A DNA stretch of 64,000 nt from Telopea speciosissima. Its lineage: Eukaryota; Streptophyta; Magnoliopsida; Proteales; Proteaceae. Shown here piece after piece: positions 3,001-40,500 of the stretch. The translations under genes were made by a program, and so were the position numbers. Within the stretch, counting starts at the first letter, position 1, and every line of letters begins with the position of its first letter. Below the pieces are notes generated by a model. The model did not search any database. It saw only the letters and a program-made list of their open reading frames with translations, and was not told the origin of the DNA. The stretch is taken from the NCBI RefSeq assembly GCF_018873765.1, contig NC_057918.1, positions 66,878,871-66,942,870 of the forward strand. Direction: 5' to 3'.

Positions 3001-6000
3001 AGGTTCAGGGGTAATATTGTCCTTGTACCTATAGTATCTAGGTTCATTATGCACATGTTAAATGTGTTAGATAAGGATTGAGTAAATCATTCCGTATTTG
3101 TAATATTCTGAAGTTATAAATAAAGGCATGGCCTTCGTCTCATTGACAAGCCAGTATTCATGGAAAACAACATTTTTTTTGGATTACATTGAACCAAGTG
3201 CTTTTTCATCTTCAGTTGTTCAGGCAGTGGAGATTCTTTCTGAAGAATCCTCAATAGGTGAAGAAATCAACAATAATGGGAATACAATGTGATTAAAAAG
3301 AAAACTATGATAATCTTATATTTATGAGGATCTTATCTAATTGATGCCCCAATAAGGAAGAGTGATATGAATCCGACTGAAGAGGCTAAAAGAGCTAGGG
3401 GCAGACCTAAAATGACCATAGGAGAAGTGGTGAGGAAGGACGTGCATAGTCTAGGTCTTGTACCAAGTATGACATCGGACAGAGCCTATTGGAGGGCAAG
3501 GATCTATGTCGCAGATCCTGGTTAGCTGAGATTCTCCTGATGTGCTGGGCTGTGCCTCTTGCCTCTTACTATCTTTCATCATTCATCTTTCATTTTGCTA
3601 TTTACTTATCATCCTTCATTTGTCTTTTTTGTGCCTTTTTCACTTCTCATCTCTTTCCCCATCCCTCTTTTCCCATCTTTTCTCTACCATTTTGGGTAGA
3701 TCTTTGTTTGATCTACTTTGTGTCGTTTGGATCCTTGTAGCCGACCCCATTAAGTTGGGATAAGGCTGAGTTTGTTGTTGTAACTGTAATTTTGTTGACT
3801 ACAGAAAAAAAGACAAGAATAATTTTGCAGGTCAGCAGGGCGAGCTGCAATGAAACCTGAAAACAAAGAACTAAAATTGAAGTGATATGTGACAATAGAT
3901 AAACAGTCTGACCCAACCGTGCTGTAGTTATGTCATTGACTGTCTTTAGCTTCCATTGAAATCGAATGAAACTCTCTAGGAACTTGAGAACCTCCATGGG
4001 CCTTGATTTCGATTGCATCAAGGGCTCTTTATGCACCCAGGACACACTAACTCAGGCAATATTACCCAAGGATTAAAGTATCAGTATTGCATATCGTACC
4101 GGCGGGGTGATTTTTAGAGACATTGTATCGTATCAGAGATACACAAGATACGCTACAGACACGCATGGAAATGGTCAAGATATGCATGGAAATACACTTT
4201 TGGAGTGGAAAACAGTATAAGTAACATAGAACATGTATCATGCATAAACACTAAAATGGAGAAACAACATATACGGAGACAAGTGCATTCAATTGAAATT
4301 GTTATAATAGTTCTGTTGTTTGTTATCAACATATAATTTTTGCAAAGCCAAATCTCTTGTTTTTTGCTGGAAATCGGAAAAAAACTTTCAACCAACTTTC
4401 ATTTTTCTGGGAAAGTTCATGAATCAGAGCACAAATTCATAACCTCGTGATTGATGGTATGATTTTGTTAGTTTAGGCTGCATCCATGTAACTCATGCAA
4501 AAAAACAGGTCTAAAAGGAAAAATTTAACCAAAAAAATAAAGTTTTTGAAAAACATAATTTTCTGTGGAGTTCTTCTTCAATCCAAGATCTATGAGTGTA
4601 GATTGATCGAAACTCAAGTGTTTTTCCTTGATTAGATTTGCTTTTCAGTGTTTAATCAAACCCCAACTGAATGATTTGAAAGAAGAGGAAGGAAAGGGGC
4701 TACAGGTCGATTTTTGGGTGAAAAACGCTAATGCAAGGACTGTTTTTGCTCTCTGGTTCGAGATCGGAAACCCATATAAGTTATAATGGCTGACCGATAC
4801 ATATCATCGTATCGATCCGTATCGGCCGATACAGTGTGATGCAGTTTATTTTAAAAAAAAGTATCGTATCAATATTGTGTGATACCGATACGTATCGACC
4901 AATACGATACAATACGGTGCGATACTTTAAACCCTGATACTAGCTCCACATACATCTGCGCTCTCCCCAATTCCAACTTGGGCTAATTAATCTGCTACTC
5001 TGTTCTCTGGCCCATAGTTCGAGAACTCGCGAGATCTCGCCGAGTTTCTTGGTATTTTGAAAATCCAAGACGAGATGGGGGTCGAGTCACAAAAGTACAA
5101 TATCCCGCTGAGATCTCGGTTTGACATTGGAAAATGCCCATCTAGGTCCTTTATATGAGTGTCAGATCTCGAGATCTTGCTGAAAATTCTTGGTAAACAG
5201 ACACCTATCTATGCCAGGAACCAAGACAGACAAGACAGACACTTATTTATGCCTAATATCATTTAAGTAAATGTACAAAAACATTTACTTAAGATATTAT
5301 TCATAAATAAGCAAATACCCCCCTATTTGAATCCAATAAAAATAGTTAAAAAAATCAAATTCCAAAAGGAAAAAAAGTCAACCCCCCAGTTCAAGAACAA
5401 AAATTGGATTTTTGGCTATAGGTGCAATTTTCAACTTTCTAATGCTGGGGTTTTTCTCAAATCTAAAAATTCCATAAATCTTATTATGGTAAAACATTGC
5501 TAAAAACCAAAAGTGCGGTAAAATATTCATTTGTTTTGATGTCCAAAAAACTATTTTCATTCAGAGCGATTTTGACAGCATTCGCGCACAGTGAATTAAG
5601 TTTGACCGGTACATAACTCTTTCAATATAAATCAGATTTTAGCAATCTTGGACTTGTTGGAAAGCTTTGTCCAGCATTAGAAAGTTGAAAATTGCACCTA
5701 CCGCCGAAAATCCAGTTTTTGTTCTTGAACTGGGGGGTTGACTTTTTTTCCTTTTGGAATTTGATATTTTAACTATTTTTACTGGATTCAAATAGGGGGG
5801 TATTTGCTTATTTATGAATAATATCTTAAGTAAATAAAATACAAATACAAAAGCATTTAATTAAATGAAATACAAATACAAAAGCATTTAAGTAAATGAT
5901 ATTAGGCATAAATAAGTGTGTTTGTCCTGTGTCTATCTTGGTTTCTAGCATTAAGTGTCTGTCCTGCTTTCCCACTAACTGAAACTCCTATTTGGACTTT

Positions 6001-9000
6001 GTTTTTGCAAAATCTGATAGTGCCATTGTGTTTAAATGGCCTAAAATAGGCTGAATACCAAGTTTCAAACCCAAACTAGGTCTAAAACCCACCGAGATGA
6101 GGCTTCGAGTCGAGAAAAAAAAAAGTGCACCAACTCGGCGAGATCTCGTCGAGAGCTCAACTCGACTCGACTCGACTCAGTTTTTCAAGGGTCCGAGTTG
6201 GCACCGAGACCCGAGTTTTCGAACCTTGCTCTGGCCTAAGGCCTCAGTTGGAGGACATAAACTACACCCAAGGTCCCAACATTTGGGGAAGCTATGGTTG
6301 GGATTTCTCGCGTTTCAAAACAATGATCTCGGTCCCAGCCATTGCTGGAAACCATGAAAGGGGTCATTAGAATGACATTTGTCCATGTCACTATGCCACT
6401 TGGGTTTTTATCTTTCTCATTTATTACTATTTTGCACACCAAAACAACCTCCTAACTCATTAGCCCGAAACAATTATTATGGTTGTGTGTGAATAAATAC
6501 AATAATCAAGGGTCTAATTAGTTAGGAGGGTTGTTAGCTGAGCCGAATAGTCATATTCAAGAAATTCACATAAGCATAGCTCATGATTCAGACTAACTTC
6601 AGTCCAACAGAGGGACCCAGGTCAGGTCGTAGTTTTCCCAAAAATTAGAGACCCCTACCCATGGTTCTTAGTTTCGGTCGAAACTTCCAAGACAACTCGG
6701 TTGCCACTTTGTCAAAGACGAAACCAAGGATTGAAACTGGTTTGTACCAGGTTTTGTAAGTTTTGCAAGTTTTGACACTCCCAAAGGGGATTTTTGCCAA
6801 AAACTTGCAGTTTTTTACCAAATCACTTGATTTCTTCCTACTTTTTGGCATTCTTCTACTCATTCAACCCTTCTACAGCTTGAATTTGAGTGATTGGAGA
6901 TTGAAGGTAATTTTTTCCCAAATTTAATTTTTGGAAGAATTAGTATATAGACATAGTGTTGGGCACAAAATATAGTATGGGATACATGTGTTGCATTAGG
7001 AGGAGCGTCAACGACATCTTAAGTGGTACTCAGCTCATGGATTAGACCCACCAAGACACCATGTATTGAGTAGTGAGTGTTCTATACTAGTATTGCCTAA
7101 CCTAATGTATGCTTTTATTGTTGTAATTGCATTAATGATTATAGTAGGACTAGTGCACAGCAGCATTCAGCTTACACTAGCAAAATTAGGTCTTAACCAA
7201 AAGTACCAATTTGGGTGGTTTTTTTGTGAAACTAATTCTTGGAATAGGTGTAAAATGGTAAAAATAGGCAGCACCAAAAAAAAAGGTCAAAAAACCATTT
7301 CCGGGTTTTGAAACCTAGGTTTCAATTGACTCAGAAAAATCCCAAGTTTCGACCGAAACCTGGTTGAAACCCGAGATATCTCGGTTTTGACCAGGGCCAT
7401 AACTGGCCTCGAAACCAAAAATTCAATCCTTGCCCTACCATAGTTTTTGAAATGTGAGGGACCCTATTCATATTTCTCCAAACATTAGGGACCCCAACTG
7501 TAATTTAGCATGCTGTATGAGCCATTTCATATGGGAGTACAGTGATAGGATCTCTCTGATGTATCTGGATAGCCTCAAGGGCCTCCAATCTCTGCTCTCA
7601 ATCTGCTAATCACTCAGACTCACCCTCCATTATAATCCTCTGTAGATCTGCAGTTGATTCAATAACGAATCTGCAACCATTAAGTAAAAGCATTCTCGCT
7701 GAGCCTGGAAACCCATTTAGACTTGAGAATACATAAAGTTGAGTTCGACTGTGTAAGGGGACCTTGGGCTAGGGGTCATGTACACTGGCAGGAGCTGACA
7801 AATCCATTAATGTGGAACTAACAAGGAGTGCAAATTTGGTCAGAAGCTAGAGGTGCCTAATTGTTCTTTTCCCCCCTCAAAGAAGGCCTTGTAGCCTGGA
7901 CTATGATCAGTTGGAGAATCATTGGACTTCGATCCCATAGAGGAGGTCTAAAATAAAGAGTTGTTAAGTGGGAGCACTGTAATATGATGGTTTGAGTTCT
8001 ATATTAGTTTCTCTTCTTTCATAAGTCAGGCTCTTAGTCTTAGGGTTTTAATTGTAATGAGCTTTGAGTTAGCCCTTTTGTTCTGTTTAATCAGCCCATG
8101 AAATTATTGAGGATAATGCATGAAAGAGACATTGTTGGGAAATAAATCATCTCTCAGCGACGAGGAGGTTAATTTTCTCATTTTCTCATGAGATGTATGA
8201 TGCAGAAAAATTATTTGCGCAAGTCTATCTTCAATGTTGCAAATGTTACTTCTCTAATCAAGTAATATTCAAGGTCATAATTAATTTTCACACTCTAACA
8301 TGATGTAATGTTTCAGATTGAAATGTCGGAGATACGCTCTATAATCACCAGAGCTACTTCAAGGAGCCTTGTGCTTGTTGATGAAATCTGCAGGGGAACA
8401 GAAACAGCAAAGGGGACTTGTATTGCTGGTAGCATTATTGAAACTCTCGACAGCATTGGTTGCCTGGGTATCATTTCTACCCACTTGCATGGAATTTTTG
8501 ATCTACCATTGAGTAAAAAGAACAGTGTGTATAAAGCAATGGGAACAGAGAATGTAGATGGTCAGACAAAGCCAACATGGAAATTGATTGATGGTATCTG
8601 TAGAGAAAGTCTTGCCTTCGAAACTGCTCTAGAGGAAGGAATCCCTGAAGGAGTAATCCAGAGAGCCAAAGAATTATATCTTTCAGTAAATGGAAAGGAT
8701 GTATGCAAAGGAAAAGATTATTCAGAAGTAGAACAACCAAGTTCTGATTCCGATGCCAATGACTCTGAAGCTTACAATCAATTGAGTCAGTTTGGAATAG
8801 GAACTGCTCATTGTGTGAAGAGGACAGAAAACCCTATTGAGATTCTGAGGAAGGGGGTTGCAAATGCTATAACTGTTATCTGTCAGCAGAAGCTGATTGA
8901 ACTTCACAAACAGAGGAATGTGTCAGAACTTGTGGTTGTCAATTGTGTAGCTATAGCTGCTAGGGAACTGCCTCCTCCATCAACAATAGGAGCTTCAAGT

Positions 9001-9379
9001 GTCTATGTAATGTTCAGACCTGACAAGAAACTGTATGTTGGACAGGTACTCATCATGGTTCCTTGGGTTTTTTTGTCATTTCCTGTGTATTGTTAGTATC
9101 ACTGCTCTGTTTTAGTTGTTAATTTGGCCAAATTCAAAATTTATGCAGACGGATGACCTAGAGGGCCGAGTTCGTAGTCATCGTTCAGTGGAAGGAATGC
9201 AGAATGTGGAGTTCCTCTATTTTCTAGTCCCTGGAAAGAGCATAGCCAACCAACTTGAAACTCTGCTAATCAACCAGCTGCCTCGTGAAGGCTTCCGACT
9301 GAGCAATGTGGCTGATGGAAAGCATCGTAACTTTGGCTCATCTAATCTTCCGTCAGAAAAACTCAGCTTACATCGGTGA
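1..9379 (+). CDS. MSH1: MSH1, organellar MutS homologue with GIY-YIG domain (3' part)
   Basis: Exons read here are 1-84, 8317-9045 and 9149-9379, all joined in phase 0 with GT-AG borders. The 5' exons lie outside the window. The first exon encodes [20 protein letters not shown] and runs on to a Gln at the splice site. The second begins [17 protein letters not shown], carries the ATPase Walker B stretch [12 protein letters not shown] and the STHLHGIF motif of MutS domain V, then a Ser/Asp-rich linker. The last two exons form a GIY-YIG nuclease-like domain: SSVYVMF, KLYVGQ, the Arg-rich GRVRSHR, the Glu of [10 protein letters not shown] and the closing KHRNFG. MutS domain V fused to GIY-YIG is the plant MSH1 arrangement. 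The family protects mitochondrial and plastid DNA from illegitimate recombination. The reading frame is intact. The only oddity is the very large intron 85-8316. Confidence 0.96.
379..561 (+). repeat. 5' LTR of the copia element
   Basis: 183 bp, TG...CA ends, directly followed by the primer-binding site. About 95 percent identical to 2990-3172. The flanks of the pair are T-rich (CTTTT before, TTTTT after), so a 5 bp target duplication is possible but not distinctive. Confidence 0.92.
1030..1073 (+). repeat. MITE terminal fragment inside the copia element
   Basis: CATAGTTGTCATGGCGTCGC followed by more CATGGCG words matches the left end of the MITE at 21620 almost base for base. No matching right terminus was found nearby, so this is a scrap, or an insertion whose other end decayed. 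Confidence 0.6.
2990..3172 (+). repeat. 3' LTR of the copia element
   Basis: 183 bp copy of 379-561, immediately preceded by the purine tract GAAGGGGAG. It contains AT-rich TATAAATAAAGG near its end, a likely promoter/poly(A) signal region. Confidence 0.92.
3330..3783 (+). mobile_element. RTE-type LINE, 3' end only
   Basis: A short reading stretch around 3365-3525 encodes [17 protein letters not shown], then [15 protein letters not shown], the C-terminal end of plant RTE-clade LINE polyproteins. It is followed by the typical 3' terminal text GCCGACCCCATTAAGTTGGG and GATAAGGCT with a TTGTTGTTG tail ending near 3781. Everything upstream of the last 60 or so codons is missing, as expected for 5' truncated LINE insertion. 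The left border is approximate. Confidence 0.75.
4067..4935. mobile_element. MULE-like MITE, GTATCG-rich subfamily
   Basis: 869 bp. The left end CAAGGATTAAAGTATCAG pairs with the inverted right end CAGGGTTTAAAGTATCGC. Inside both ends are many GTATC/GATAC words (CGTATCGATCCGTATCGG). Flanking 8-mers ATATTACC (4059-4066) and ATACTAGC (4936-4943) agree at 6 of 8, fitting a decayed 8 bp target duplication. No transposase coding. Eight-bp duplications fit Mutator-like or hAT superfamilies; the assignment to Mutator is inference. Confidence 0.75.
5013..6228. mobile_element. MULE-like foldback MITE, GAGATCTCG subfamily
   Basis: 1216 bp. The left end CATAGTTCGAGAACTCGCGA and inverted right end CAAGGTTCGAAAACTCGGG form the terminal repeats. 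Exact 8 bp direct repeats CTCTGGCC flank it (5005-5012 and 6229-6236). Next to the ends are runs of CGAGATCTCG and CGACTCGACTCGACTC. The interior is a long hairpin with arms 5240-5448 and 5671-5918. No coding capacity. A truncated relative lies at 59050-59563. Confidence 0.88.
5240..5918. repeat. Long inverted repeat (hairpin) within the MITE
   Basis: The left arm 5240-5448 reads from CACTTATTTATGCC to CTAATGCTGG. The right arm 5671-5918 is its reverse complement from CCAGCATTAG to GCATAAATAAGTG, with a small AT-rich insertion and a few mismatches. The loop is about 220 bp. Weaker pairing continues outward (CCAAGACAGACAAGACAG against CTGTGTCTATCTTGG). Confidence 0.88.
6660..7432. mobile_element. 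MULE-like MITE, TTTCGGTCGAAAC subfamily
   Basis: About 773 bp. The left end CATGGTTCTTAGTTTCGG and inverted right end CAAGGATTGAATTTTTGGTT frame a body with repeated palindromic words GTTTCGGTCGAAAC, GTTTCGACCGAAAC and GAGATATCTC. CCCTACC occurs immediately on both sides (6653-6659, 7433-7439). An eighth base differs. The terminal repeats are more decayed than in the neighbouring element. Confidence 0.7.
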
Positions 9380-10210
9380 ATCATAGGGTGGACTCTTGAT
9401 TGAGGCTACAAAGAAATTTGCCTGAAGCACCTTCTTCCCTCAGCAGCATAATTTTATATAGTTACATTGCAAATGCATCAATTTTGGGTAATGTTATCAA
9501 GTTGCATCAAATGTATCTAACAACCGGCATGTATGTATGTACATATATGTATTAGTATGATAGTGACCAATCTTTGGTCACTAAATTCATTTTTGTAGTT
9601 TATGATGCATATGCATCGTCTGTTAAAGGTATTCTTTTTGTCTTCATCAAAAGCTTTCAAGTAAATTTTCAAGGGTTTCTTGAAGTGTACTACTTCAAAA
9701 TAAAGGCCGAACCTAATCCAACCTTCTTGCAGTCAAACTTGGAGGTTGGATTCATCTTACTGCATCTTAGGAACTTTTTATGGACAGTGACCTGTAGTCC
9801 AAACCACATGTGGATGATATTCTTTAGACCACATGAGGGATGACTTGGTCACTCCATTCCCTCTGTCCAACAGAGCCACCTTTGTTGGTCATATGCAAGG
9901 TATGCAGTGCAAGTAAAAGAGGGTAGGGTTGTTTTTGCAGCAATTGCTGTGGGGGAAACTAGCACAACTAACAGCACAAAAGTCTTGGGTAATTCAGTTT
10001 AGAAGAAAATTTTTAATGTGAATGCATACTAGGAGTTTCATTTTCAACAGCCAGCATAGTTTATAAAGGGAGTGTTTGAATGACATCTCTTTAGGTGCAT
10101 TTAGAACTTTACATCTTTTAATTGTCTTTTGTCTTGTTCTCAAAATTTATTTTATGTTAGAAATACAAAAGACTTTTAAAAAATAATTTGAAAGTGACAT
10201 CATTATGTTA

Positions 10211-10368
10211 CAGGAAACGTTATCATACACAGTCGCGTAAACCGTGTATGTGAGATGGTCTCTCACAAAGAGTTGGAAAAGTCATCAATCCCCACCCATT
10301 AATTAATGCTTTGAAACTCTCACCCTCTCACATACATGTTTATACGACCGTGTATAAAAACTTTCCCC
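10211..10368. mobile_element. Small TIR element (MITE), 158 bp
   Basis: Left end CAGGAAACGTTATCATACAC then AGTCGCGTAAAC pairs with inverted right end GGGGAAAGTTTTTATACACG then GTCGTATAAAC. The inner parts both reach TGTATGTGAGA. Exact 8 bp direct repeats TTATGTTA flank it (10203-10210, 10369-10376). Noncoding. Confidence 0.82.
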
Positions 10369-10482
10369 TTATGTTATTATCAAAAGGTGTTATTGTCATG
10401 CACATATTTCGGGCACGCTTGTGAAATGATGATGTTTACCTTATTGCAAAAAAAAGTAACACTAAAAGGGCTAAAAAGTAAA

Positions 10483-10918
10483 GTTACAAACTATTAGACG
10501 CCTTGAGGGATATCAAAAAGAATAGAAAGTGGACTTAGATGGTGTTGAATTGAGCATTCACGTGACTTTAAACATTGTCAAAGACACTTTTGCCCTGTAT
10601 GATCTTTAAGAAACAAAAGGTTCCTTCTCCTTCAAATAAACAGTCTACAGTAGAAGAGTTTTAGCCCCCAACCCCCCCCCCCCCACCCCCAAAAAAAAAG
10701 TGATGTTACAAATTATTTGACACTTGAGGAATATCAAAAAGAATAGAAAATGGGGTTAGATGGTGTTGAATTAAGCACTCACGTGACTTTAAAACATTAT
10801 CAAAGACACTTTTGCCCTTTATGATTTTTAAGAAAACATAGATTTCTTCTCCTTCAAAGACGGTAAACAGTTTAGTAGAAGAATTTCAGCCCCCCCCCCC
10901 CCAAAAAAAAAAAAAAAA
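10483..10918 (+). repeat. Tandem duplication, about 222 bp unit, two copies
   Basis: Copy one 10483-10704 and copy two 10705-10918 both begin GTTACAAA. They share AATATCAAAAAGAATAGAAA-like and GATGGTGTTGAATT text and end in a poly-C run followed by poly-A. Many point differences indicate an old duplication. Confidence 0.85.
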
Positions 10919-20443: not shown

Positions 20444-23400
20444 TCAGCTTTTGCCATTTAATTTTTCTGAAAGGATCTTGTTTAGAAGCTGTGGGTTGGC
20501 TTTACCTTTTGATTCCTTCATCACCTGAAAGTAATTTGTTTCAATCAAAAACCGTTCAAAACAAATACAAAATAATTATGAGAATAACTAACCGAAAGTC
20601 ATACTCTGGGTTTCTCCATATTTAATACCTGACTTTACAGACAGGGGGGGGGGGGGATTTATACCTGACCAGCAAAATATCCTTGTAACTTAGTTTTTCC
20701 TCCACGATATTGTTGAAGCTGCTTTGGATTTTCTGCAAGCACTTTATCCACCATTTTTTCAATCTCAGCAGGATCCACAATCTGTTATTTCCATATTCCC
20801 ACAGAAACATCGAATCATTCAATGGAAGAAAATACTCTTTGCATACTTTAACAATCACAATCTCACATTCGAAGGGTTTGCAAAAGGGTTGTCATAATTT
20901 GTTAAAATACTCTTCACATACTTTAACCATCACAATCTCACATTTGAAAGGTTTGCAAAAGGGTTGTCATAATTTGTTTAACGTTTGCTCAACATGTTCC
21001 CTCCCAATAATGGGGAGATGTTGTTCTCACTGCAGCCTATCTCATTAATTGATTGCCTACTAGGATCCTTAACTCCCATAGTCCAACTGAAATAGACTCC
21101 TCTAAAACTGAAATAGGACTCTAACTAAGAAATTATAAATCAAATCCTCCTACATATCAATCCCAAACAAAATATAATAAAATAAAATGAAATAAAGTAG
21201 AATTACAAGATTAACCTCAAAAAACACAAATAAACTCCTACCAACCCTTATTACACCAAAAACATGATCTAAGCTGGCTTCGCCTCAATCTGGGTTTCTA
21301 GATCGGGTGATGCCAGTCCAACCCTGATAACACTACTGTATTACTTCCCTTATATAATTAAAAAGGAGGAGATTCTGTTGACTGCTTCAAGAGCTAAACA
21401 TAGCTTACGTAGATTCTAAAGAAAGAAATATCTACATCATGGAAATAAGACTACCACTAGCATAGCCTACAGTCCAGTTCAGCATTATAGGACCAAGCAT
21501 ATGGAAATTGACGGCTACTTCATAAAGGAGAAGTTGAGGCCAGTTTTGATATGTCGATATCTATTCCACATACGGAGGTAGATGATCAACTGAAGTAATG
21601 CTCATTCCACTGTATGTATCATAGTTGTCATGGCGTCGCCATGCGCCATGGCGTCCTAGCGCTGGAGAAGCATGCATGGCGACCTACGCCATGGCGTCCC
21701 TCTTCGATATCTTCTTCCTGTCTCTCTTTCCCACTTCGATTTCTTCTTCCTGTCTCTCTTTCCCTCTCGATTCAATTTCTTCTTCCTGTCTCTCTGTCTC
21801 TGTTTTGCAACTAAGAAGTCGCCAGATTTGATTCCAGGAATTAAATACTCCTTGTTTAGTTGATTTCTGTGATGAGTTCTTGCTGGAATTGATAGAACAC
21901 GATGTGCCGATGCTTCGCTTGAAGGTATAGACTGGACCGAGAAGAGTTGAAGGAGTTATCTCCTTCGTACTGCGCTGTTTTTCGTCCCAGGCTGAAGTCG
22001 TAAGGTTGAAGACAACCATAAATCCATAATCCGGTCGTGGGTTATTACAAATCCTTATTTTTGCCTTTTTCCTAAAGTACCCTTCTCTTCTTTTATTCCC
22101 CTTTGTCCATACTTTACACATCCCTCCAAGTTTACCCTTAGTCATTAAATCAAAACTCTTTTATGCCCTTTCTTAGATTCTACTTAATTACAAGATTGCC
22201 ATCCTTAAAACTTGAGAAACAATAGAGAAAAAATAAAACATGGCTTGAGTATACATCTAATAAAACATTAAAAATAGAGAAAATAAAAAATAAAACATGG
22301 TCGACATGCTCGCCATGGCGGGCAACATGTCGATATATCGACGTGACACCACCGACTTGGATCACTGTGACGCCGTGACAACTATGGTATGTATAGAAAG
22401 TTGGGCATGTCACATAATAATTGAATCCATGCCACAGTTCAAACAGGAACAGTGTAATGCATAGCTACATGTGAGAGCTCTGTCATCTTTGGAAGATCAT
22501 ACAAGGATAGTAGTATACATTCATGAGAGATTCTGGTCCTTCTGTCATAATTCTACATAAATGAAATCAGATGGCGAGCATAAATGTGCTCTATAGACCA
22601 AGTCTAACTATAATAATCTTTAAATGACATTATTACCATTCAATGTACTGAAAATCTGAAATGCACAAATTTATCACTCATTAGCTACAAGAATATGCAA
22701 TTTGGCCATTATTTTCATAAGTAATGTGGTCGCTCATTCTATCTAGTGATTGTAAGTCCTTTGGAGACCAACAGTTTAGATGTTAGCACATTGCATGCAT
22801 CATTAATAAGAGCATTGGTCTTTATACAACCATCTATCTGAAATAATTAGCATATCATAGGACCTTATCACCATTCAACAAAGTGGAGAGACTTACCTGA
22901 ACTAGATCTTTTTCTTCTATTAGTGCCTTGACAGTGCCTCCTTTGGATATTAACTCAAAAAGTATCTGCAGGTATAAAGAATAAAACATTTAACATAAGT
23001 ATAAAATTCAATTTTACATATGATATAGCCAAGCTATCTAGAGTAGTAGTAATAGCAGTAGAGTGGCTGTGAAACCAAAAAACAAGAACTTTGATATGAA
23101 TAAACTGAAGTGGAATCATGGCACCAGTGAAGTTTGTATTTAGTGCCATGTTTTGTTGAGACAACTGGTATGCTAGCCATCAGATTCATGATATGAGCCA
23201 CAGCAATTTGTGAATTAGAAATCTTGCATACCCCCTTCCTAATCTGCTCCCCCCCCCCCCTCCTCCTTCCTTTTTAGCTATTTAATTCTATTATTTATTT
23301 ATTTATTATTTTTGCGTATACCATTCTTTTTTTACTCAGGTCAAGCACTAAACCAACTCATTTATGGACTTCTCAAAAACCGTAGCCTATAATGATGCCT

Positions 23401-26400
23401 GTTGATGATACTTGATGATGCATCCCTTCGAACTTAATTAAAAAGGGAAAAGAGAAAGATTGTCCATAATGGTAGAAGGGTAAAGAGACACACATGCACG
23501 CATATACCTGAACATAGTTTACAGGTTGGTTTCAGTTTATACATGCAAAATAAGAACCAAAGGCAGAGATTCACCTCTTTCCCAATCTTTCCACTTATAG
23601 TCCCGCCTTTAATAGAAGATATTAGTTCAGCCAGCTCCTGGGGTGTAAGTTTTATCTCATTTATAGACAACTTTTCATTGTTCAGATAGGCAGCAATATC
23701 ACCCATTATCCAATTGGCAGCAAGCTTCACATCAGCACTCTTTCCAACAGCTGCATCAAAAAAATCTGCCACCTGAGCCATTTCCTAATAGAAGTTAGAG
23801 TTGAACCCACATGATCACTAGGTAATTTACAAACTTGGTATTAAATAGTAGCAGATAAAGCTGACTGATAGTATCATAGTTTTCTCTTTTTTTTTTGTGA
23901 AGGGGGTTGCAGCATGATAAATACTTATGACAAAAGAAGTGTATTGGGCTTTAAGAAGTGTATGCACTGATAAACACCTAACGGGAAAATACATTAGACA
24001 TGAACATCATGTCCTCCATTTGCAATACATGATCTGCTTCTGATACTTGACTCCATGCTTATAAACAGGGCTTACATTTTTGTCATTAGCAAGAAAAAGT
24101 ACATCCTGCATGCTGAGACCTATTTTTTCATATCTTCTGCGCTTCATTTCTGGAAGTTCAGGTAAAGAAGCGGAAATAGTATCGATGTATTCTTTACTGA
24201 CAATAACTTCTGGAAGATCTGGTTCGGGAAAATATCGATAATCAGAAAGCCCTTCCTTTTTCCTCATTGAAACTGTTCTCTAAATAAAACAGAGGTTAAT
24301 GAAAAAAATTAGTCATGAAATTGGAAAGATTTATTTGTCCTTGAATGAACAAATAATTAATCAAACCTGAGTCCCCTCTTCCCAAAGTCGAGTTTCCTGT
24401 ATAATCTGATCACCCTGTCCTTGACTATGGAGATCTACCTGCCTGGAGATCTCAAAATCAATTGCCCGATTTATTGCCGAAAATGAGTTCATGTTCTTTA
24501 TCTCAACCTGCCAGAACCAAACAAATGCAGAACAGAGCAACTAATTTATGAGAATGCTACAAATTCACAAGAAGGTGGGAAGCCATGCAGAAAATATATT
24601 GATATCCTCAATTATAATAAAAGAAAATAAAAAGCAATTGAAGCATTCTATGCTGCTTTTATCTTGCCCATTCACCAACCAAGTTTTAATTCTTGTCAAT
24701 GATATATTAAGGCTTACCAGCAGTAAGAAGCAAGGTGGCTCAACTGAGTGGTGTGCCCATTGATTTGGGATCCGCTCCATTGATTATAATATTCTATATA
24801 CAGTTTTTATAAGATTGGACATGTCATAGAATTTTATTGACAAGGTTATGACACATGCTTGCTTTAGTTATGTTACTTATTATCTTTGTAATCAATATGC
24901 AAGTTTCCACTCCATCCTGGTTTCTCAGAAGCAGGATATAACAAAAGTGGTAAGAAGCGGTGAGAATCAATAAGTTAAATGGTCCGTTACTTTGATCTAG
25001 TTCTCTCAAAACTTTTATGGTCCCACTAAAGCACTCAAGAAAGGCAACAATCAGTTCTACTTTGAAATTGTAAAACAAAAATCTACACAACCCACAGCAC
25101 AGAATTTGATCCCTATTCAATAGACTGACCATGGGAAAAGGAAGAAGGTACGAATGAATTCGGAACCTAATTCCACAAGAATATAATTCTAGCTTCACCA
25201 ATCTTTGAATTTATCTGTATTCCTTGAGTTTATATGCTTGCTAAGAAAACAAAAAAATAAAATTAAAACAAGAAAGATCATTTACCTTAGTTCCAAACTC
25301 TGACTGCCCAATTGGCCGGACAGAGACATTTACATCACAGCGCAGCGAACCTTCCTGCATATTGCCATTGCTCACTCCCAAATACCGAACCAACCTCTGT
25401 ATCTCTGCTGCATACTCTGCAGCCTCAAGACCGCTTCTAATATCAGGCTCAGACACAATCTCAAGCAAAGGCACCCCTGCTCTATTCAGGTCAACCTATA
25501 GAAATGATCAACAAGCCCATAAATCAAACACTATCCAACTGAACAGAAACAATACTCATTAATCAGGTTTTTCCTCTTTCTAATATGTAAAAGACCAAGT
25601 TATAAGTTAAAAGCCATTCATTTGAGAAATAAGCAAGGTTAAAAATCAATTGCCTAATCTGGGGATACAAGTAAACCAAACAAACCATAAATCTCATTAG
25701 TAAAACATAAGAGGGGGAAAAGATATACAAAAACAAAAAAAACAAAAAAGGCAAATCACCTCACACTCTCATAGTAAATAATATTGATGAACACCAAGGA
25801 AGGGGGTAAAACAGCATTACCTGGGAGTAGCTTTCAGTTCCTGAATGAAGCAACTTCCCTGCATCTTCTTCCATATGAACCCTGGTAATCCCAAACCTCC
25901 TATGCCCTCCACCATACTCGATGGGAAGATCCAACTCAATGAAACCACCCGTAGCAATTGGGACATCGAACTGAGATATCTGGTAGCCCTTTGGAAGATC
26001 AGGGTAGAAGTACTGTTTCCTATCAAATTTTGAGTTCATAGAAAGTTTACAGTTGAGTGCGAGACCCACTTTCACACCAAACTCAACGATTTTTGAGTTC
26101 AAAACTGGCAAAGCACCAGGCAGGCCCATGCAAATAGGGCAAACATGGGTGTTTGGTTGGGACCCATAGAAATAAGGACACCTACAAAAGGCCTTAGTAA
26201 GAGTGGAGAGCTGTACATGGGTCTCTATACCAATGATTGTTTCGTAGTCCTTTGAGGTTTTCTCAACAGTTTTGGTTTGGGTCTGGCTAGAAAATGTCAT
26301 CTCAAGTTGCTGGTTTTTATGTGTAGTTGTTGGGGCTTGCACACTTTCCATGGTGCAAAAGAAAGCACCATTTTTTCTAACAAAAAGTGCAGACGGGTAA

Positions 26401-26447
26401 AGGAAGAAAGGGTGTGTTCTGATCCCTCTAAAACAAGTGGAAGCCAT
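20444..26447 (-). CDS. GATB: GatB, glutamyl-tRNA(Gln) amidotransferase subunit B, organellar
   Basis: Eight exons on the minus strand: 26447-25821, 25495-25286, 24507-24367, 24279-24076, 23772-23575, 22965-22897, 20781-20665, 20524-20444. All are in phase 0 with GT-AG borders, giving 548 residues. About the first 65 residues look like an organelle transit peptide. The GatB core starts [15 protein letters not shown], followed by the Cys-rich FCRCP and [25 protein letters not shown], the substrate-pocket region HMEEDAGKL and [16 protein letters not shown]. The C-terminal YqeY-like part ends with [16 protein letters not shown]. GatB activates Glu-tRNA(Gln) with ATP so that GatA-derived ammonia makes Gln-tRNA in plastids and mitochondria. 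The gene looks intact. The 2.1 kb intron between exons six and seven holds a MITE and a 75 bp tandem repeat. Confidence 0.96.
20831..20980 (+). repeat. 75 bp tandem repeat, two copies, in a GatB intron
   Basis: Units 20831-20905 and 20906-20980 share AATACTCTT, CATACTTTAAC, ATCACAATCTCACATT and GGTTTGCAAAAGGGTTGTC. They differ at only a few sites. Too few units and no spacers, so not CRISPR-like. Confidence 0.85.
21620..22386. mobile_element. MULE-like MITE, CATGGCGTCGCCATGG subfamily
   Basis: 767 bp inside the GatB intron. The left end CATAGTTGTCATGGCGTC and inverted right end CATAGTTGTCACGGCGTC match at 17 of 18 bases. Exact 8 bp direct repeats GTATGTAT flank it (21612-21619, 22387-22394). 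The left end continues with palindromic CGCCATG/CATGGCG words. The inner part has a threefold TTCTTCTTCCTGTCTCTCT motif near 21706-21800 and otherwise unrecognised sequence. No transposase. Confidence 0.9.
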
Positions 26448-27327: not shown

Positions 27328-27338
<11 letters not shown>

Positions 27339-27377: not shown

Positions 27378-27378
<1 letters not shown>

Positions 27379-31709: not shown

Positions 31710-34167
31710 ATGCAGTTCATGTTTCAATATGGGATAACGGTTCAAATAAATGATTTCAATTATCATAACTATAAATCTTGTGAAACTTATGGTTAACGTG
31801 ATTTAAAATATTAGATTACTGGTCATGATCTCTTCTTTTTTTTAAAAAAAATTTAGTTTTACCGCCCCCGCCTCCCACACAAAAAAAAAAAAAAACGAAA
31901 GCGTAGAAATGTCATGACTTTAATGGTTAATGGTTGAATCTTATCTTTCTAATGGTACTTTTCAAAATATGGCGAAACTTGGGTAGAGGTGCAACTAGGT
32001 CGAGCAACGCAGTGATTCTTTTTTTATTGGTTTGCCAACCCAGCTCCATCCAAAGGTCTCAACTCTCAAGGCTCGACCTAGGCCATAGGTTGTGGGGGCG
32101 AGTGGGACTTGGCTTTATTTTTAGGGGTATCATTTTTACGTTTTATACAACAAGTGGGCATAATATAATTTGAATCTAAGTTTAGGGTTGTTATCCAGGC
32201 AATTTTTGGTAAAAAAAAATTTTCAATTGATTTTTTGTTTTTGTTTTTGTTTTTGGTAAACAACTGACTTAATTGAAGACGTCTAAATTGAAGCATCAAA
32301 CTTATCTATGCTTTATTTTTATTATTTTTATGTTACTTTTATACAAAAAGTGGGACATAATATAATTTTTAACCTAAGTTTATGGTTGTTTGATCCTGTA
32401 CTTAGCCAAGTAATTTTTGATAAAATTAAATTGAACCAGTCTATACATTAAGTTTCAAATATTAACTATTAATATAAGGAGAAAGTTTTTCTTCATTACG
32501 CGGTGAAGATTTATCGCATCATCCCAGAGTTCATGAATCCCTATGGGTTTTAGTATGTTTTCTAAAATACTCTTTTAATACCCTCTTACACGCATTTGAA
32601 AGTTTAGAGTGGATGAATTTCCATTCACTGTGTCTTAAGGAAAATTTGACCTATATATATGATTACCTTGTAAATTTTCTTCATTGTAACTTAATTTCAA
32701 TTTATACATAATTGACAAGGATTGATAACAGATCGATAAAGAACCAATAAATGGCTGGTAGACTGAAATTGATAAAGTACCGAAAGCTATAACCGACCAA
32801 AATCTTATCTATTTCTATTTCGATTTTTAGAATCAATTCCTACATCTGTGGTTTTGGTGTCAACCATTAAATAAGCTAAAGGTAATCAATCATTCTATGA
32901 GGACCGAAGTTGACTTATTTTGACATCCCTAGGTCTTCTCTTTGCTTCTGCTACTTTGAACTAGGTGGGACCCATAGTTCACCACATCATGTCCACCACA
33001 TACCATTTCTACCAATCACATTTTGCCACGTATTTCCTGTTTTAGACCACAAAAGTATAAAAAGTTTAGATGTCTTTACCGTATGACACGTGGATATCTG
33101 ATGATGTGGTGATCATAAAAGTTATCTCAAACTGCCACCTCATGTGCATGCATCAATGGGCGTGTGTCACTATTTCCACCACCTATGGGCTCACGTAACA
33201 ATAGTGACATTCTACAATTTAGATCTTCTATTGTTAAGCTGTCTGGTAAGATCGTGCTGTCCACACACGGTGCTACATGCAATGATCACCTTATTTTAAT
33301 TTGAACAAGACGTTTGGACAAGGATAAGACGGACCTTATGTGCAATATCGTGTCTAATATCGTGTCTGAACACATTGCTATGTAACACTCTGTGCCTGAA
33401 CAGCACGATCATATCAGGCAATTCCGCATGAGAGGACCAGGATTAGGCAGTCTATCTCCGTAAGACCCGTCAATAAAAGGTCTCGTGGATTTCATAGAAA
33501 GGTCCAAGTCAAAACCCAATAAGGGACTTTTTTTTTTTGTTTTTTTCTATTTGACTATCCACTAAAGTTCACTGGCCCCACTCGCATCAGTCGCATGGCA
33601 TGGCATGCCATATCCATAAGTGTTTTTTTTTGGTAAAAGCCATATCCGTAAGTAGTTTCGTGGAGTCACTCCTGTAAAGTAAAAGATTCCAATCCAACGA
33701 ACAATCACTGGGGGAGCCCCATTACAATTGACTTCAGATTCGCCACACTAAAAAAAGATCTTGGTCCACATGACGCAGCAACACATCTGACATGAAGAAA
33801 ACATATTGGATAAGCCATGGCCCACATGAGTGGCGACAGAGTGAATATCTTAGTATTTAATGTCAGTAGCCTACATCTGCCGTTCGATTAGGATAATTGG
33901 CATAACAAGATCTAGAATATCTGTCAGATTGGAATATTAGTTGGTTGTGTATATTATTATATTACAGCCGTATTAACGTAAGAATAACGCCCCACCTACT
34001 GTCGAGTATCCAGAAGCAGAGAGAAAAAGAGGTTCATTTGTTTTTTCACTCGTGTCTCGTGACGTGTAATGGCCGACTCGGTCCGATATTCGAACCGCCC
34101 ACCCTGAGTCCACTCACGAGTCACGAGGTCGCTTTTTAAGAGTCGACACTGGCCGCCATCTCTTCCG

Positions 34168-34240
34168 CTCTCTCTCTCTCTCTCTCTCTCCTCTTGTTCG
34201 GTTCTCCCGTTTTCCCGCTGAAGGAAACCTTATAAATACA
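34168..34240 (+). promoter_or_regulatory. TH2 core promoter: CT tract and TATA box
   Basis: A (CT)12 tract at 34168-34191 is followed by TATAAATA at 34231-34238. That would place transcription start about 25-35 bp downstream, near 34262, leaving a leader of roughly 260 bases before the TH2 ATG at 34524. Confidence 0.6.
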
Positions 34241-34349
34241 AACAGAAAGCACGGAATCAAAGCAAAACGATTCAACGAAAACGAAATCAGTTTCTCTTCC
34301 TCTCTCGTTCGTCGCTGTCTTTCTTTTCTCTCTTGAATTCTTGATGTTA

Positions 34350-34442
34350 ATGCGTTTCTTATTCAATCCGAGCATGAACTCAAATGTCAGAATCATCTCT
34401 GCTTATGTGACAAGTTTCGGCGTTATAGATCCTCTGAAGTGA
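34350..34442 (+). CDS. Upstream ORF in the TH2 leader, 30 codons
   Basis: ATG at 34350 opens MRFLFNPSMNSNVRIISAYV, reaching a TGA at 34440-34442. The start resembles MRFLF, which I recall as the N-terminus of the Arabidopsis TH2 precursor. The uORF is in the same frame as the main ATG 174 bases downstream, but three in-frame stops separate them. It could be a decayed transit-peptide segment, or a translated uORF. Whether it is translated cannot be seen here. Confidence 0.5.
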   Translation: MRFLFNPSMNSNVRIISAYVTSFGVIDPLK

Positions 34443-34523
34443 CTGCTCTGATCTTCTTCTGTTGTGAGATTACCGCAAAAGCACTAACGCTATTCTCTTG
34501 ATTGGAATTGGACGACATCGACG

Positions 34524-37500
34524 ATGACTACGATAGCCAAGAATGTGGCTATGAGGAATGTGAAAGCGCCTGTCGACGATGGGATAGCGAAACAGTTCTG
34601 GATCAAGTTCAGGGATGAATCATTGTTCGTGATTTACACTCCTTTCGTCGTCTGCTTGGCTTCAGGCCAATTGGAATTGGAGTCTTTCCACCATTTTATT
34701 ACTCAAGACGTGCATTTCCTTCGAGCTTTCGTTAAGGCGTGAGTTTCTACTTGATTCTTCCCTGAGTTCTTGATTGTTGGTTTAGGGTTTAAGGGAGGTT
34801 TTTGATCGCTCGTTGGTGTGTTTGTATGTTTACTTTAGGCTACATTTGGCAGAAGATGTTGCTGATGATGACGAGAACGAATCTGCTATTGCGGAATTGA
34901 GGAAGCATGTCAAACAGAAGCTTAAAATGCACAAGTCTTTTGTCAAAGTAAGCTCAAGAGATACTTACCTTTTCTGTTTTCTTTCAAAATCTTGGCATCC
35001 GCTTTACAAGTCTTTTGTCCAAGTAAGCTAGCTTAAGAGATACTTACCTTTTCTGTTTTATTTTAAAATCTTTGCATACGCTTTCACATTTCTTTAGAGA
35101 TCACCGGTTGGAATCCAAAGACCAAATATGGGGAATGACATGATGTTTGAATCTTCTTTACGGCATTTAATTGCCATTGATGGAGGCATTTTATGAAGAA
35201 TCTCTTTCAGCAGTCACAAAATAAAATTCCACTAAAACTATGCACCATAGAGGACTTGAACAAGTAGTAAAACATATCACCAAGGACTGGGGGAGGTTCT
35301 TAAATTGCCTGTCTGTTTCTTTTAAAATCTTCACTTCTGTTTTCACATTTCTTGCAAAATCTTTCAGTTAAAATCCAGCAAGACTGAATGTTAGTAATGA
35401 CCTGATATTCTTAACTTCTTGACTGAATTCAAATGATAATGTCCTCTTGAAATTTTTTAGCATTTAATAAAATATTGAATTCATGAGTCACAATTCCAAT
35501 TCTGTCAAGGTTATGGTTATCATCAATGAGGAATCAACTAAAATATATCAGCAAGAATTGATGTAGGTTCTTATGGATCTATTAAAACATTATAGAATAA
35601 AAGAATCATTTATAGTCATAGCCTTACTTTTGAATATAGATGAATGTGCAGCTGTTTTACATTAGTCTTACTGATTGTGCATAGCGTTGGCCATTTTTAA
35701 CATTGCCTCTGGAAGAAGTGGGCTTTGTATCTTCTTAGATTCTGTACGAATCATGTATAACTTATTAGGTCTATTAAGAGGACTATAAATTAGAAATTGT
35801 TGAACAAGTTACTTACACTTGGAAATAATATGTGGATTCTAGTAAGAAAAACAAATTACAGGTGAGAGGAAGTTATGTAATATATATATATTTTTTGGAG
35901 AATAGGAAAGTTATGTAAGTCCTGAACAGATTGGAGGCACTTTTGTATTTTGTCCAATGGAAGGCAATTATCGTATCGGCAGAATTTCTCACAGAATACA
36001 CCTAACAGATTACCAGATTCAACCTTCTGGTATTAAATTACCATCTGTTGGTTAATGCATTGGTAAGATTCTCTTGGCGTTCCTATATTAAAGTATGATC
36101 CTATGCAAACAATTCTTCTACTGTGGTGGAGTCTTGGTTTGAATGCCCTTCAAACAGGTGCTAGAGATATTTTGAAAGGAAACAGAAAACTTTCCTGAGA
36201 TCATAATTGGGCCATGGGCATCCATATTACACCAGAATAACTTCTCATTCTATTGGTTTTCATTCCACCTATCTTATTCGGTATTATTTATGTATTTGAA
36301 ATATCCCCTTTGAATTTATTAAGAGTGCCCAGGGGATTTCTGGTTTTCATCCAACTATCTTATGGTATTATTATTTTATTTCTTTTTAGATTAAGAGATT
36401 GAGTGGTTGTGTTAGCTAAGGAAACTTCCAAGCAGTTGGTTACGATTGAGATTAGTTTCCTAGTTAGCATTGGTTGTTTATTATTAATTTTCCTAGTTAG
36501 ATTAAATTACTCCCATACAATAGTTTGTGGATGGGAGATTTTAAAGTCCTTCTCTGTTTTGATTCCTTTTTATTTAATATACAATTCTATCCAGGTCACT
36601 CCAACGGCAGCCATGCATGGAGGTTCCTGATTTATCTCTGTTTGTTTCTCTTTATTTTCCTTTTTAAATTCTGATTCTGTCCAAGCGTGGTCAAGGTTGG
36701 TTGTAAATATATTGTAGGAGGCTCAGTAATGTAGTGTTAACCTTGAACCAATGAAGTCAAGTGGGAGACTAGCTTGCGACAGGATCGCAGGTGTAGGGAC
36801 AACTCAGATATGCATTATGGTTAAATGTCTCTTTTGTTAAGGAGAAGTCTGTACAATCTTTTTGTCGATCCAATGGTTTGAAGATATAAGGTAGTCTTAA
36901 AAATAGCAAATCACCAAAAGAGATACCAGATTTAGTAAACAACGGATATAAAAAAACTAGGAACTAGGTTTGAAGAAATCAGAGGGTAACCAAAAGAGAT
37001 ACCAGATTTTGTAACCAACAGAAATAAAAAATTAGGAACTAGGTTTGAAGAAATCAGAGGATAACCAAAATAGTAAGTTGCTGAAAATAGAAACTCAGAT
37101 TTAGTAACTACAGAAAAAAATGCAACTAGTGGGAGTTATAGCTAGAGAAACCAAAATAGGAAGTGGAGAATAAAATTAGTAACTAAGGAAACCAAGTAAG
37201 AAGAGGGTGTAGAAAATACAAAGTAATAGAAAATTGAAACTTGTACAGGTATGTTACAGCCATAGTTGTCAAGGCAACCCCTAGGCACCGCCTAGGGGTC
37301 TAGGCTCTTTCTTGGGTCCAAGGCGGTAGCATACCTTGTTAACACTTCATAAGTTTACTTTAATTTATGTTTATTGCTTTATTTTTTGATGAATATTCAT
37401 ATATTGTATCATATGCTTTATTTCTTATATGTTGGTTATTGCATATTAGATCATTACTAGTATAGCTATAATTATATCATATTTCATTGATATGGATTGT

Positions 37501-40500
37501 ATGTTGCATAGAAACATAATTTTGTAAATTATCATTGTTATATTACATGTAGTCAGGTGTGCGCCTTGTCGCCTAGGTGCCCCTCCAATGCCTTAGGTCA
37601 CCTAGTCACCTTAACAACCTTGGTTACTGCTGCAGGACACTAAGGAGAGCAATGAACTCCCACTAACAGGAGAAATGATGGATTGATGTGGTGGCTTTTC
37701 CTGCACTAAGTAATGATCTGAAACTTTAATGGAAGATAGAGAAAGAGAGACCTCTCATCTAAATGTAGAGAAGGAATCCCACAAATTCCAGCCTTGGCAT
37801 CCCACCAAGGTTTCCCTACTACCTCCCACACTAGAACAGTTCTGAATCCCACAGAACCATGCTCTGTCTCTCACAGAACTCACAAGTTCAAGGATAAATT
37901 GTTCCTCCAATTGTTAGTGTGTTATGATTCTCTCTTCTTTATTTATAACTTCATGGAAATAAGAAAAATAGGAACCCTCATATGTGGAAAGAGGAATCCT
38001 TTACAATCTAAGCGTTTTACAAAATAGAAACTAACACTAATCCCGTACAAGACTCAAATTCCTCATATTTGGGTTTATAGAACTGACCCATTGTAGAATG
38101 GGCCCATTACAATAGTAAACCCAAAAATACTAAGCTCATGGCCCATATAATCCTTTGGACACTCCAAATTAAACATATTGGTTCATTCTTGATCCAGTCC
38201 AATGGCCTGGTTTGTTGTTGGCCTTCTTATTCTTTTGAACTGCATCACCCACTACTATAAGATTGAATGAATGGAATTGATGTAGTTTATTGTGATAGTG
38301 AGGTTTTTGCCTCTCTCTCCTCATCTTTCTTCTAAAATTACTGTTCATGGGTACTGTTCACAGTCTCAGAACAGCCCCTTATCTCCCCTTCTTCTTCCCT
38401 AGTAGATCGAGTTCTTCTTTCCATTGATCTGAAACCCAGCACCAGCAGATCCATCTCTCCAACCTGCATCACTCCTTCTCACTCATCAGGGGTTAAAGTC
38501 ATTGTTTCATTATCTATGACTTCACATCTATACTTATGGAAGTCTAGCAAACAAATTTGAAAATATAACTCAAGTGTACCAAAATGTTGTATATGTCTTA
38601 AACAGCTTGTAGAGTGCCATTCTACCAGGGGCAAATATTGGAATATTGCACTGATCCTAAATCATGGTATTCAAAAAACAATGTTGAAGTGAATGGTTTT
38701 TTTGAGATCCTAGGAAGACATGGAGTGAGTAAAGCACTTAAAGAAACATTCCAGTTTTACAAACCATGCTGAAATCATTTAACTAGTTTGGAGGGCATGC
38801 CTAATACATTGCTGCATTTGTTTTCCTTAGTGTTAAAATTCATAGAATCCACAGTCTGCATTGAAGAGCCAAGAAGTCATTTAGTATAAGGCCAAATTGT
38901 ATTATTGAGTTGGTTTGATTTTCTTTAGTTAAATAAACTTGATTTATTGAGTTGAAATATATGGCATGGACTGATCAGGGTAACTGAGATTTTCTTTTTG
39001 GGAGTAATCAGTTGAATAAGAACTGGAATATTTTGAAGTAAAAAACTAGTTCTCCCAATGCATTGAGATCCCATTCCAAGAACCTCTGACAAATTACATC
39101 TTTGACTTCCTGTGCTATAGAGACCCAATTCAACCAAATATTGCTTTGATTTCACGGTCAAACAAATCTAACTGGGACACATTTATTACCTAGTGGAGGT
39201 GGGTTTCATAAAGCTTCCAATTGAATTCACAGGAATCTGTGACCATATTCACTATAAAAAACTATTAGTTTGTGTGCATACATGTGTGTGTGTATGTTTG
39301 TAGTTTTTTTTCCCATCCGTACCAATATATTGAGAGATGCATAATTTGTTCTGTTATATAGTCTGGCTGTATTTTTTACGCCAGTTTAGAAGTACACCTA
39401 ACATAAAACTAGTTTTGTAGAAGTTGTGGGTATATGCAATAAATTTTAATATCGTGAAATGCTTAAGTAATGAGACTCTGATCAAAGAAATTACTGGTTT
39501 TTGCCATATATCAGATTTTTTTTCATAATTTGTTGCTGCAGTAGAAAGGCTATCAGAATTTTTTTTTCCATGTAACTGAAGAATTGCTATATGCTTTAGT
39601 TTGGAAGTTCCTAAAAGAGCAATGCTAGGAGGGCCATGTTGTCTGTTCTCTACAGGACCCCCAGAATGTGATTGGCTGTTGTCATTTTGGCAGGTGGGAG
39701 TTGAAAAGTCATAATTTTTTTTACTATTTGAAATTAAACCGCCACATACAGTCATGTGTTGGGTTCCTTTAGAAAATGGACTGATGTGGTCCTCTAGACA
39801 TTTCCATTCCTATTTCCTGCGACTGATAATGAGATACTTAAATAGTAATGTAGCAAAGTTAATTTCTTCTTAGTTATATACTTTTCACCTAAAATAACTA
39901 ATGCTTACTGTAGAAAGTAATCTTAGACTTTTTGAACCCAATAATCAATTGCATCATAATACCAGTGCATGTAATGCAGTCAGCTGTACAGGTCCCACCA
40001 TTCAATGATGCTGGCCTAGAACATCTATGTAGTAAACTGACTTTACTATAGATCATTACATGCTACCCATAGTTGTCATGGCGTCTAGGTGCCCATCTAG
40101 GTGATCAAGGAACCGGGACACCTGGGTGTTGCCTATAACTAACTGTTTTGAATGTTTAAGAAGAAAAGATTGGATTCTTGGTTTGCATACATGTTTAGAG
40201 ATAGTGTAGAATACAATTTGAATGCTTTTCCTATCCATAGATGAGTATGATTTTTAAGTGCTGAAACTTTGCTGCCCTTTAGGGGAATGCCCTCATGCTT
40301 GATTTTAAGGTACCACTCTATTGGCCTTGGAGAAAAAGGGAAGGCATACTTTCTGACAGAACTGGGGCTGGCCTCATGTCTGAACTTCTCACTCTCCTTA
40401 TTGTAAAATTGTATAGTGAGATGATTCACTTCCTTACCAAATGAGGCATCTCTACATCAATCTTGTATCATGATTGAGCATTGCTGCTGAGAACTGACCT

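Follow-up and report, generated by a model that had tools for sequence, protein, structure and literature searches.

A hAT-type group of miniature elements in Telopea speciosissima with similar tips, changing palindromic words, and a linked 5.1-kb source for one family

In Hermes, a hAT transposon of the housefly, two BED domains cooperatively bind a quasi-palindrome at nucleotides 11 to 27 of the left end, none is bound at the right end, and cleavage is impaired by a single-base displacement in the direction leading away from the tip (PMC10368747). In the maize Ac/Ds system, which is characterized by 8-bp target duplications, 11-bp tips, and many short nonautonomous derivatives, the subterminal AAACGG repeats of Ac are bound cooperatively and most likely provide specificity (PMC3260210). 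Repeated subterminal hexamers have been suggested to enhance cleavage by Kat1, a domesticated yeast hAT with a CXXH motif and a BED domain that is important for specific binding (PMC4763223), and a plant nonautonomous element moved by an autonomous partner is known from the rice pair nDart1/aDart1 (PMC4585910). The present study deals with five palindrome-rich elements, E1 to E5, on a 64,000-nucleotide stretch of Telopea speciosissima (referred to as the window; C3:66878871-66942870, assembly of 823 Mb in 1287 contigs) and with their relatives elsewhere in the genome.

The five window elements are real miniature inverted-repeat transposable elements (MITEs) with CA(A/T)(A/G)G-type tips and no recognizable coding domain. 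Beyond this, we consider it likely that E1 to E5 are nonautonomous hAT MITEs for which an element of about 5.1 kb encoding BED and DUF659 domains is the source of E4 and probably of E5, and that the palindromes behind their tips are putative BED docking sites. The likeness to Hermes lies in a palindromic subterminal pair near one end, which in Hermes is occupied by two BED domains, and its lack at the right end; the Hermes half-sites are AAGT/AAGC, whereas perfect CpG palindromes, often repeated, are present here, and the spacing of the BED ligands is different. Ac/Ds is similar in duplication size, repeated subterminal words, and short derivatives, but one hexamer is described there, whereas in the present group similar tips are followed by a variety of palindromic words, and the transposase is a DUF659-type protein. 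Kat1 differs in being a domesticated host gene rather than a family of MITEs. The five elements are as follows.

E1: 4067..4936, plus strand; non-coding hAT-type MITE with GTATCG words (GTATCGGCCGATAC, CGATACGTATCG) and the tips CAAGGATTAAAGTATC / CAGGGTTTAAAGTATC.
E2: 5013..6228, plus strand; MITE with CGAGATCTCG words and the exact 8-bp duplication CTCTGGCC.
E3: 6660..7432, plus strand; MITE with the word TTTCGGTCGAAA; close to its right end it also has an E2-like CCGAGATATCTCGG.
E4: 21620..22386, plus strand; MITE with CGCCATGGCG words at the left, GTCGATATATCGAC at the right, and the exact 8-bp duplication GTATGTAT.
E5: 37261..37622, plus strand; MITE with CCTAGG/CGCCTAGG words and the duplication GTTACAGC/GTTACTGC (7/8 matching).

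Loci designated by L-numbers were fetched from the genome in three sets of 30, i.e., by means of the E4 left end, the Dimer_Tnp_hAT domain (150 of 1799 candidates scored), and the DUF659 domain (150 of 2699 candidates scored), and up to about 100 to 160 genome places were listed per search. The DUF659 set comprised four multi-copy groups at 8% distance, the largest of which, with 11 loci, contains L068 and L081. An E4-type left end is located 2.6 kb before the DUF659 region of L068 (CATAGTTGTCATGGCGTCGCCATGGCGTCC) and 2.27 kb before that of L081 (CATAGTTGTCATGGCGTCGCCATGGCG, upstream DNA CATAGTTGTCATGGCGTCGCCATGGCGCCGCCATGG). With Pfam models, a single frame of L068 scored 22.0 bits for zf-BED and 196 bits for DUF659, and a following frame gave a partial Dimer_Tnp_hAT match (31.1 bits, cut-off 21.4); zf-BED exceeded its cut-off in L068, L075, and L081 and scored 18.0 versus a cut-off of 20.6 in L073. 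The motifs SDGW, TDN, and CAAH were conserved in five aligned proteins. The structure model of the transposase used to look for an RNase H-like fold with DDE residues was poor (mean pLDDT of 40.7), and PDB profile matches to QacR were taken as chance.

Shared internal sequence connects E4-type MITEs with this group. A 189-bp segment of the 727-bp MITE of L038, which has an exact duplication, is 95.8% identical to L081, the E4 element of L059 shares 751 bp with L081 at 92%, and a likeness to the 5' region of the L068/L081 group is seen in the inner part of L043, an E4 end with a right partner at a coordinate distance of 3.9 kb. On C1, inverted E4 left and right ends enclose a BED-region match at C1:33834804-33839967 (5164 bp) and C1:19265960-19271050 (5091 bp). 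Below 53.3 Mb on C1, five BED-region matches were listed, and upstream of three of them an E4 left end faces the gene, at distances of 1807, 1781, and 1875 bp, compared with about 0.02 that we estimate to be expected within 5 kb and in this orientation; the base of this count is all five matches, the clade A label of C1:19269028 and C1:52679866 having been assigned after the E4 ends were noticed. An E4 right end closes the element in two of the three cases, and the third is situated beyond the right ends listed. No E4 left end was present within 5 kb of the 11 clade D genes and the single clade B gene in the covered range of C1. Two candidates were set aside: L082, one of three unclassified genes, with E4 ends 4.1 to 4.3 kb upstream, lies outside the multi-copy groups and has a spacing unlike the others, and the clade D gene C1:15050453 has beside it an E4-like end that belongs to a 147-bp hybrid MITE. 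The preliminary description of the window had proposed to look for a long element that combines these ends with a MULE or hAT transposase; such an element, with a hAT gene, was found for E4, its right ends being placed by coordinates. As far as linked sequences and coordinates can tell, the E4 source is a hAT element of about 5.1 kb.

The relation between E4 and E5 was addressed by an end-pairing scan of the first 19.6 Mb of C1 (43 left and 48 right ends of E4 and 100 ends of E5). Neighboring ends that face each other within 2 kb comprised 17 pairs of E4 left and right ends (318 to 1824 bp), 12 pairs in which an E5 end is combined with a right end of E4 (90 to 163 bp, paired by coordinates), five E5/E5 pairs, and one pair of two E4 right ends; other orientations combined amounted to 13. 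Since these 12 short hybrids join E5 ends with E4 right ends, E5 probably shares the E4 transposase. Mosaic ends were also detected: CTAGG words as in E5 stand behind an E4 tip in 7/30 loci (L042, L044 to L046, L049, L052, and L062) and in a window scrap at 40068, and in L054 an E2-like tip precedes TTTC words resembling those of E3. Hybrids and mosaics argue for a common recognition of E4 and E5 and against strictly private words. The earlier claim of a private word for each subfamily is not supported in the form given; in addition, the word varies among E4 copies, and E3 contains an E2-like CCGAGATATCTCGG. Its second part, a single transposase for the common end, is supported by the long E4 element and by the ends shared between E4 and E5 and would be conjecture for all five. 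The earlier interpretation is partly supported, namely, for one hAT-type group of MITEs with similar tips.

The abundance of the ends and the size of the target duplications were assessed with reversed patterns (genome counts) and reversed sequence (tip-pair scan) as controls. The E4 left-end pattern CATAGTTGTCATGGCG, the E4 right-end pattern CATAGTTGTCACGGCG, and the E5 end pattern CATAGTTGTCAAGGCG occurred 1673, 1684, and 2603 times in the genome, versus 0 for each reversed pattern. Corresponding values were 1763 versus 1 for the E1 pattern CAWGGTTTRARGTATCG, 1313 versus 6 for the E2 right-end pattern CAAGGTTCGAAAACTCGG with at most one mismatch, and 143 versus 6 for the E3 pattern GGTT-N(2,15)-TTTCGGYCGAAA, with a few places counted twice since the gap varies; the E3 places include window positions 6663 and 7371. 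Eight E3-type sites in one orientation, most of them at intervals near multiples of 5.4 kb, are located at C1:22213979-22310182, which is probably a tandem array bearing the E3 word.

Candidate partner ends at less than 1.5 kb with at most two duplication mismatches were present in 22 of the 30 loci retrieved with the E4 left end. An exact 8-bp duplication was found in 15/30 and a longer one in none. Across 871 tip pairs from the window and the fetched loci, an exact 8-bp repeat abutted the tips in 20, compared with 0/316 in the control; a 7-bp repeat was seen in one pair (E3 itself; one case also in the control), one of 5 bp in only two, and repeats of 6 or 10 to 12 bp in none. Four 9-bp pairs were rejected as target duplications, as they are adjoining copies of the end sequence in the near-identical loci L045 and L046. 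The loci fetched by the E4 left end contributed 15 of the 20 exact cases, and the other five were E2, E4, and an element at 63149 in the window, L034 497-1118, and the E5-related copy L058 2339-2493. A looser tip scan gave 41 matches, 24 of them exact, versus 9 and 0 in the control. The E2 duplications were exact in two of three copies and 7/8 in one; besides the window copy, these are a 340-bp element in L037 (exact, ATTGTTTC) and an 813-bp element in L059 (CTTTGATG/CTTTAATG, 7/8). The duplication size is 8 bp for E2, E4, and E5, and the window copies of E1 (6/8) and E3 (offset 7-bp repeat) are less clear. Two further elements with exact 8-bp duplications were noticed, i.e., L034 497-1118, which represents another word family (CCGATATATCGG, duplication CTTGCCAA), and the 73-bp element L062 1611-1683 with CATAGTTGTC at either end (duplication ACCAGTTT).

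In the window itself, the preliminary description was partly confirmed: elements, tips, and scraps are present, and its printed words and borders had to be corrected. No coding domain is recognizable in the five near-complete elements, whose 30 six-frame readings gave no Pfam match at an E value of ≤0.01. Flanking repeats of 7 to 8 bp, as claimed, are exact for E2 and E4 and 7/8 for E5; the direct repeat of E3 comprises 7 bp (CCCTACC) and is offset by one base, and the right border of E1 is better placed at 4936, which results in the duplication ATATTACC/ATACTAGC with 6/8 matching. The terminal inverted repeats of E4 are short and start with CA, and CATAGTTGTCA is found at both ends. Three of the five printed words (GTATCGATAC, CATGGCGCCATG, and CCTAGGCGCCTAGG) have no exact occurrence in the window, where GTATCGGCCGATAC/CGATACGTATCG, CGCCATGGCG, and CGCCTAGG are present instead; CGAGATCTCG occurs four times and TTTCGGTCGAAA once per strand. 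The interior of E2 (window 5220-5950) is a long imperfect inverted repeat, parts of which recur in a scrap at 59240 and in L059.

The words are concentrated at the element ends. In 17 E4-type elements, CATGGCG and CATATCG on either strand reach 29 per kb in the first and 25 per kb in the last 150 bp, versus 0.2 per kb in element interiors and 0.3 per kb in the whole window. A reversed control (67/617 versus the real 45/855) would speak against enrichment, but it is invalid for CpG palindromes and was not used, because reversal converts GpC to CpG. Perfect palindromes of at least 10 bp amount to 4.5 per kb in the five elements versus 1.2 per kb elsewhere in the window, and CpG palindromes of at least 8 bp are found in the outer 70 bp of 32/48 ends of 24 related, i.e., non-independent, elements against a background of 1.8% of the 70-mers in the rest of the window. 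The palindrome is centered 22.5 bp from the tip in 3/3 E2 left ends and 12/30 E4-tip ends (10 with CATGGCG and 2 with CTAGG words), as well as in both E4 source left ends and the E5-type copy L058. Among the remaining 18 E4-tip ends, the center lies at 33.5, 11 bp further inward, in three and at 24.5 or 34.5 in three others. A CpG palindrome within 45 bp was present in 0/17 E4 right ends, and such a restriction of the palindrome to the vicinity of a single end agrees with the scheme of Hermes. The words CGCCATGGCG, CATATCG, GTCGATATATCGAC, and CGACATGTCG occur across E4 copies, the two ends of which differ in word. The earlier suggestion that the palindromes are second binding sites is favored by homology and may hold in this sense, and its slippage component is compatible with the 11-bp shift in E4, which fits a slippage of array units.

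From these observations, the following mechanism is considered the most likely. The transposase encoded by the source of E4, and probably of E5, comprises a BED zinc finger at its N terminus, a DUF659 core, and a hAT dimerization region at its C terminus, and at least some MITEs would be internally deleted source copies, as indicated by the deletion in one copy. These MITEs would be moved in trans by cut-and-paste, leaving 8-bp duplications. By homology to Hermes, the catalytic core would read the short tip at the cleavage site, and the palindromes would dock pairs of BED fingers that select the correct ends, presumably beginning with the tip-proximal palindrome of one end. Word families may then drift or be exchanged, partly as whole units of about 11 bp, while tip and spacing are largely kept. 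The Drosophila BED protein DREF binds TATCGATA, a sequence that is present within the E1-type end at 63504. A more far-reaching idea, which we regard as doubtful, is that new MITE families arise when the BED-docking palindrome is swapped at the kept 22.5-bp center behind a constant tip, with word and finger co-evolving and the hybrids recording the transitions.

Several results weigh against the proposed source and docking function. For E1, E2, and E3, no transposase was found among the ends listed, and the right end of the E4 source element is placed by coordinates only. No perfect palindrome of at least 8 bp is centered within 40 bp of the tip in 12/30 E4-tip ends, the palindrome of the window E4 is centered at 29.5, the window E5 is without one, and the word centers of E1 and E3 are 16.5 and about 18.5, so that the phase is not universal. 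The main difference between the BED segments of clades A, B, and C is in the loop that follows the second cysteine, whereas the residues before the histidine, which align with the base-contact helix of Hermes, are nearly the same, and rules that connect finger and word cannot be drawn because of this near identity. In a tentative alignment, the ligand spacing is C-x13-H, H-x10-C versus C-x16-H, H-x-C in Hermes. Finally, 314/331 Ds1 elements of maize lack the subterminal hexamer, and Ds1 is nevertheless capable of movement (PMC3260210); subterminal words may hence be dispensable.

Some of these points bear on other explanations. Each word family might have its own hAT transposase, the tips being alike through usual descent or convergence and cross-mobilization being confined to E4 and E5, which is a real possibility, if short of probable. 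Such an arrangement would agree with the four multi-copy groups among the 30 DUF659 loci, with the different tip and own words of other hAT clades in this genome, and with the ends of E1, E2, and E5, for which no consistent position beside clades A, B, C, and D was seen among the 100 places listed for each. These negatives are, however, weak, as they rest on 100 places per end, and the E4/E5 hybrids and mosaics as well as the E2/E3-like mosaic end in L054 attest to exchange. No source transposase was recognized among the E3 places listed, which were compared by eye only. E2 ends occur within 5 kb of 3/38 clade D genes in the covered range, which is above our chance expectation and in mixed orientation, one end facing the gene. 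These cases and an end at the unclassified C2:2002020 were not accepted as proof of a source.

An unlikely explanation is that the words, instead of being docking sites, arose as side products when ends prone to hairpins underwent slippage or template switching, and that selection acts on the tip only. The variable number of words, the palindromes that lie 11 bp further in, the E4-tip ends without a perfect palindrome near the tip (12/30), and the mobility of Ds1 without hexamers (PMC3260210) all agree with it, but both source left ends hold the palindrome at 22.5, different words have the same center, the words are restricted to the outer 150 bp, and binding of a palindrome by BED domains is known from Hermes. 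An origin of the elements as Mutator-like (MULE) MITEs, an alternative in the preliminary description, or as P-type MITEs is very improbable and disfavored for E4, the ends of which join a gene with hAT dimerization, DUF659, and BED domains. P elements likewise generate 8-bp duplications, which counts for this origin, whereas the duplications of 8 bp, not 9, speak against a MULE. The BED/DUF659 source and the docking function proposed above are retained as the preferred explanation.

In the 30 Dimer_Tnp_hAT loci, no end of the CATAGTTGTCA, CAAGGTTGTCA, or CAAGGTTTTAA type was seen over a distance of about 1.5 kb, and 5/30 had a loose CA..G-T-CGA match with a few scattered words; these loci were rejected as a source of the window elements and are members of other hAT clades. 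Two other hAT groups end in TAGGGGTGTCAA-type tips with different repeated words of their own, judged from right ends, namely, CCCTGACCC/GGGTCGGG in L003, L005, L014, and L024 to L026 (6 loci inspected from a cluster of 21) and CCGAAACC/CCGGCCCG in L013, L022, L029, and L032 (4 loci inspected from a cluster of 8). Divergent subterminal words behind a common tip may thus be widespread among the hATs of this genome. The rice pair nDart1/aDart1, which belongs to the hATs and has G+C-rich ends, looks nearer to these TAGGGGTGTCAA-type hATs than to the window elements.

The window contains further traces of the group, including all three scraps reported earlier (1030, 40068, and about 59050):

Scrap: 1030..1077 (right limit approximate), plus strand; truncated E4 left end within a Copia-type region, with the initial 28 bases as in several E4 loci.
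Scrap: 40068..40110 (right limit approximate), plus strand; E4 tip followed by CTAGG words, an E4/E5 mosaic.
Scrap: 59060..59700 (limits approximate), plus strand; truncated E2-type copy.
Further E1-kind candidate: 63149..63504, minus strand; end CATGGTTTGAGGTATCGATATCGG at 63504 and exact 8-bp duplication GTCCCCTT, with an atypical left end (63149) unlike the E1 tip.

Two GTATCG-type stretches (48150-48490 and 48830-49150) are near-identical, their right flanks also match initially, and they are probably a local duplication. Frames around the elements (2050-2691, 8299-9096, 25761-26447, 52200-52727, and 53854-56211) correspond to part of a Copia-type reverse transcriptase, to MutS domain V, GatB, and Psb28, and to a subtilase, in keeping with plant DNA.

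A literature text search for the tips and topic searches, as far as the texts were accessible, retrieved no paper recognizable as describing these families. The group is ordinary in kind, i.e., hAT MITEs with subterminal repeats; its unusual feature is that the palindromic words change and their spacing is often retained. Thousands of genomic ends vary far more in the word than in the tip, and several transposase clades have readable BED fingers. Together, they may serve as a natural library for the question of how a zinc finger changes its docking sequence and yet keeps cutting, and whether the one-end palindrome rule of Hermes also holds in plants.

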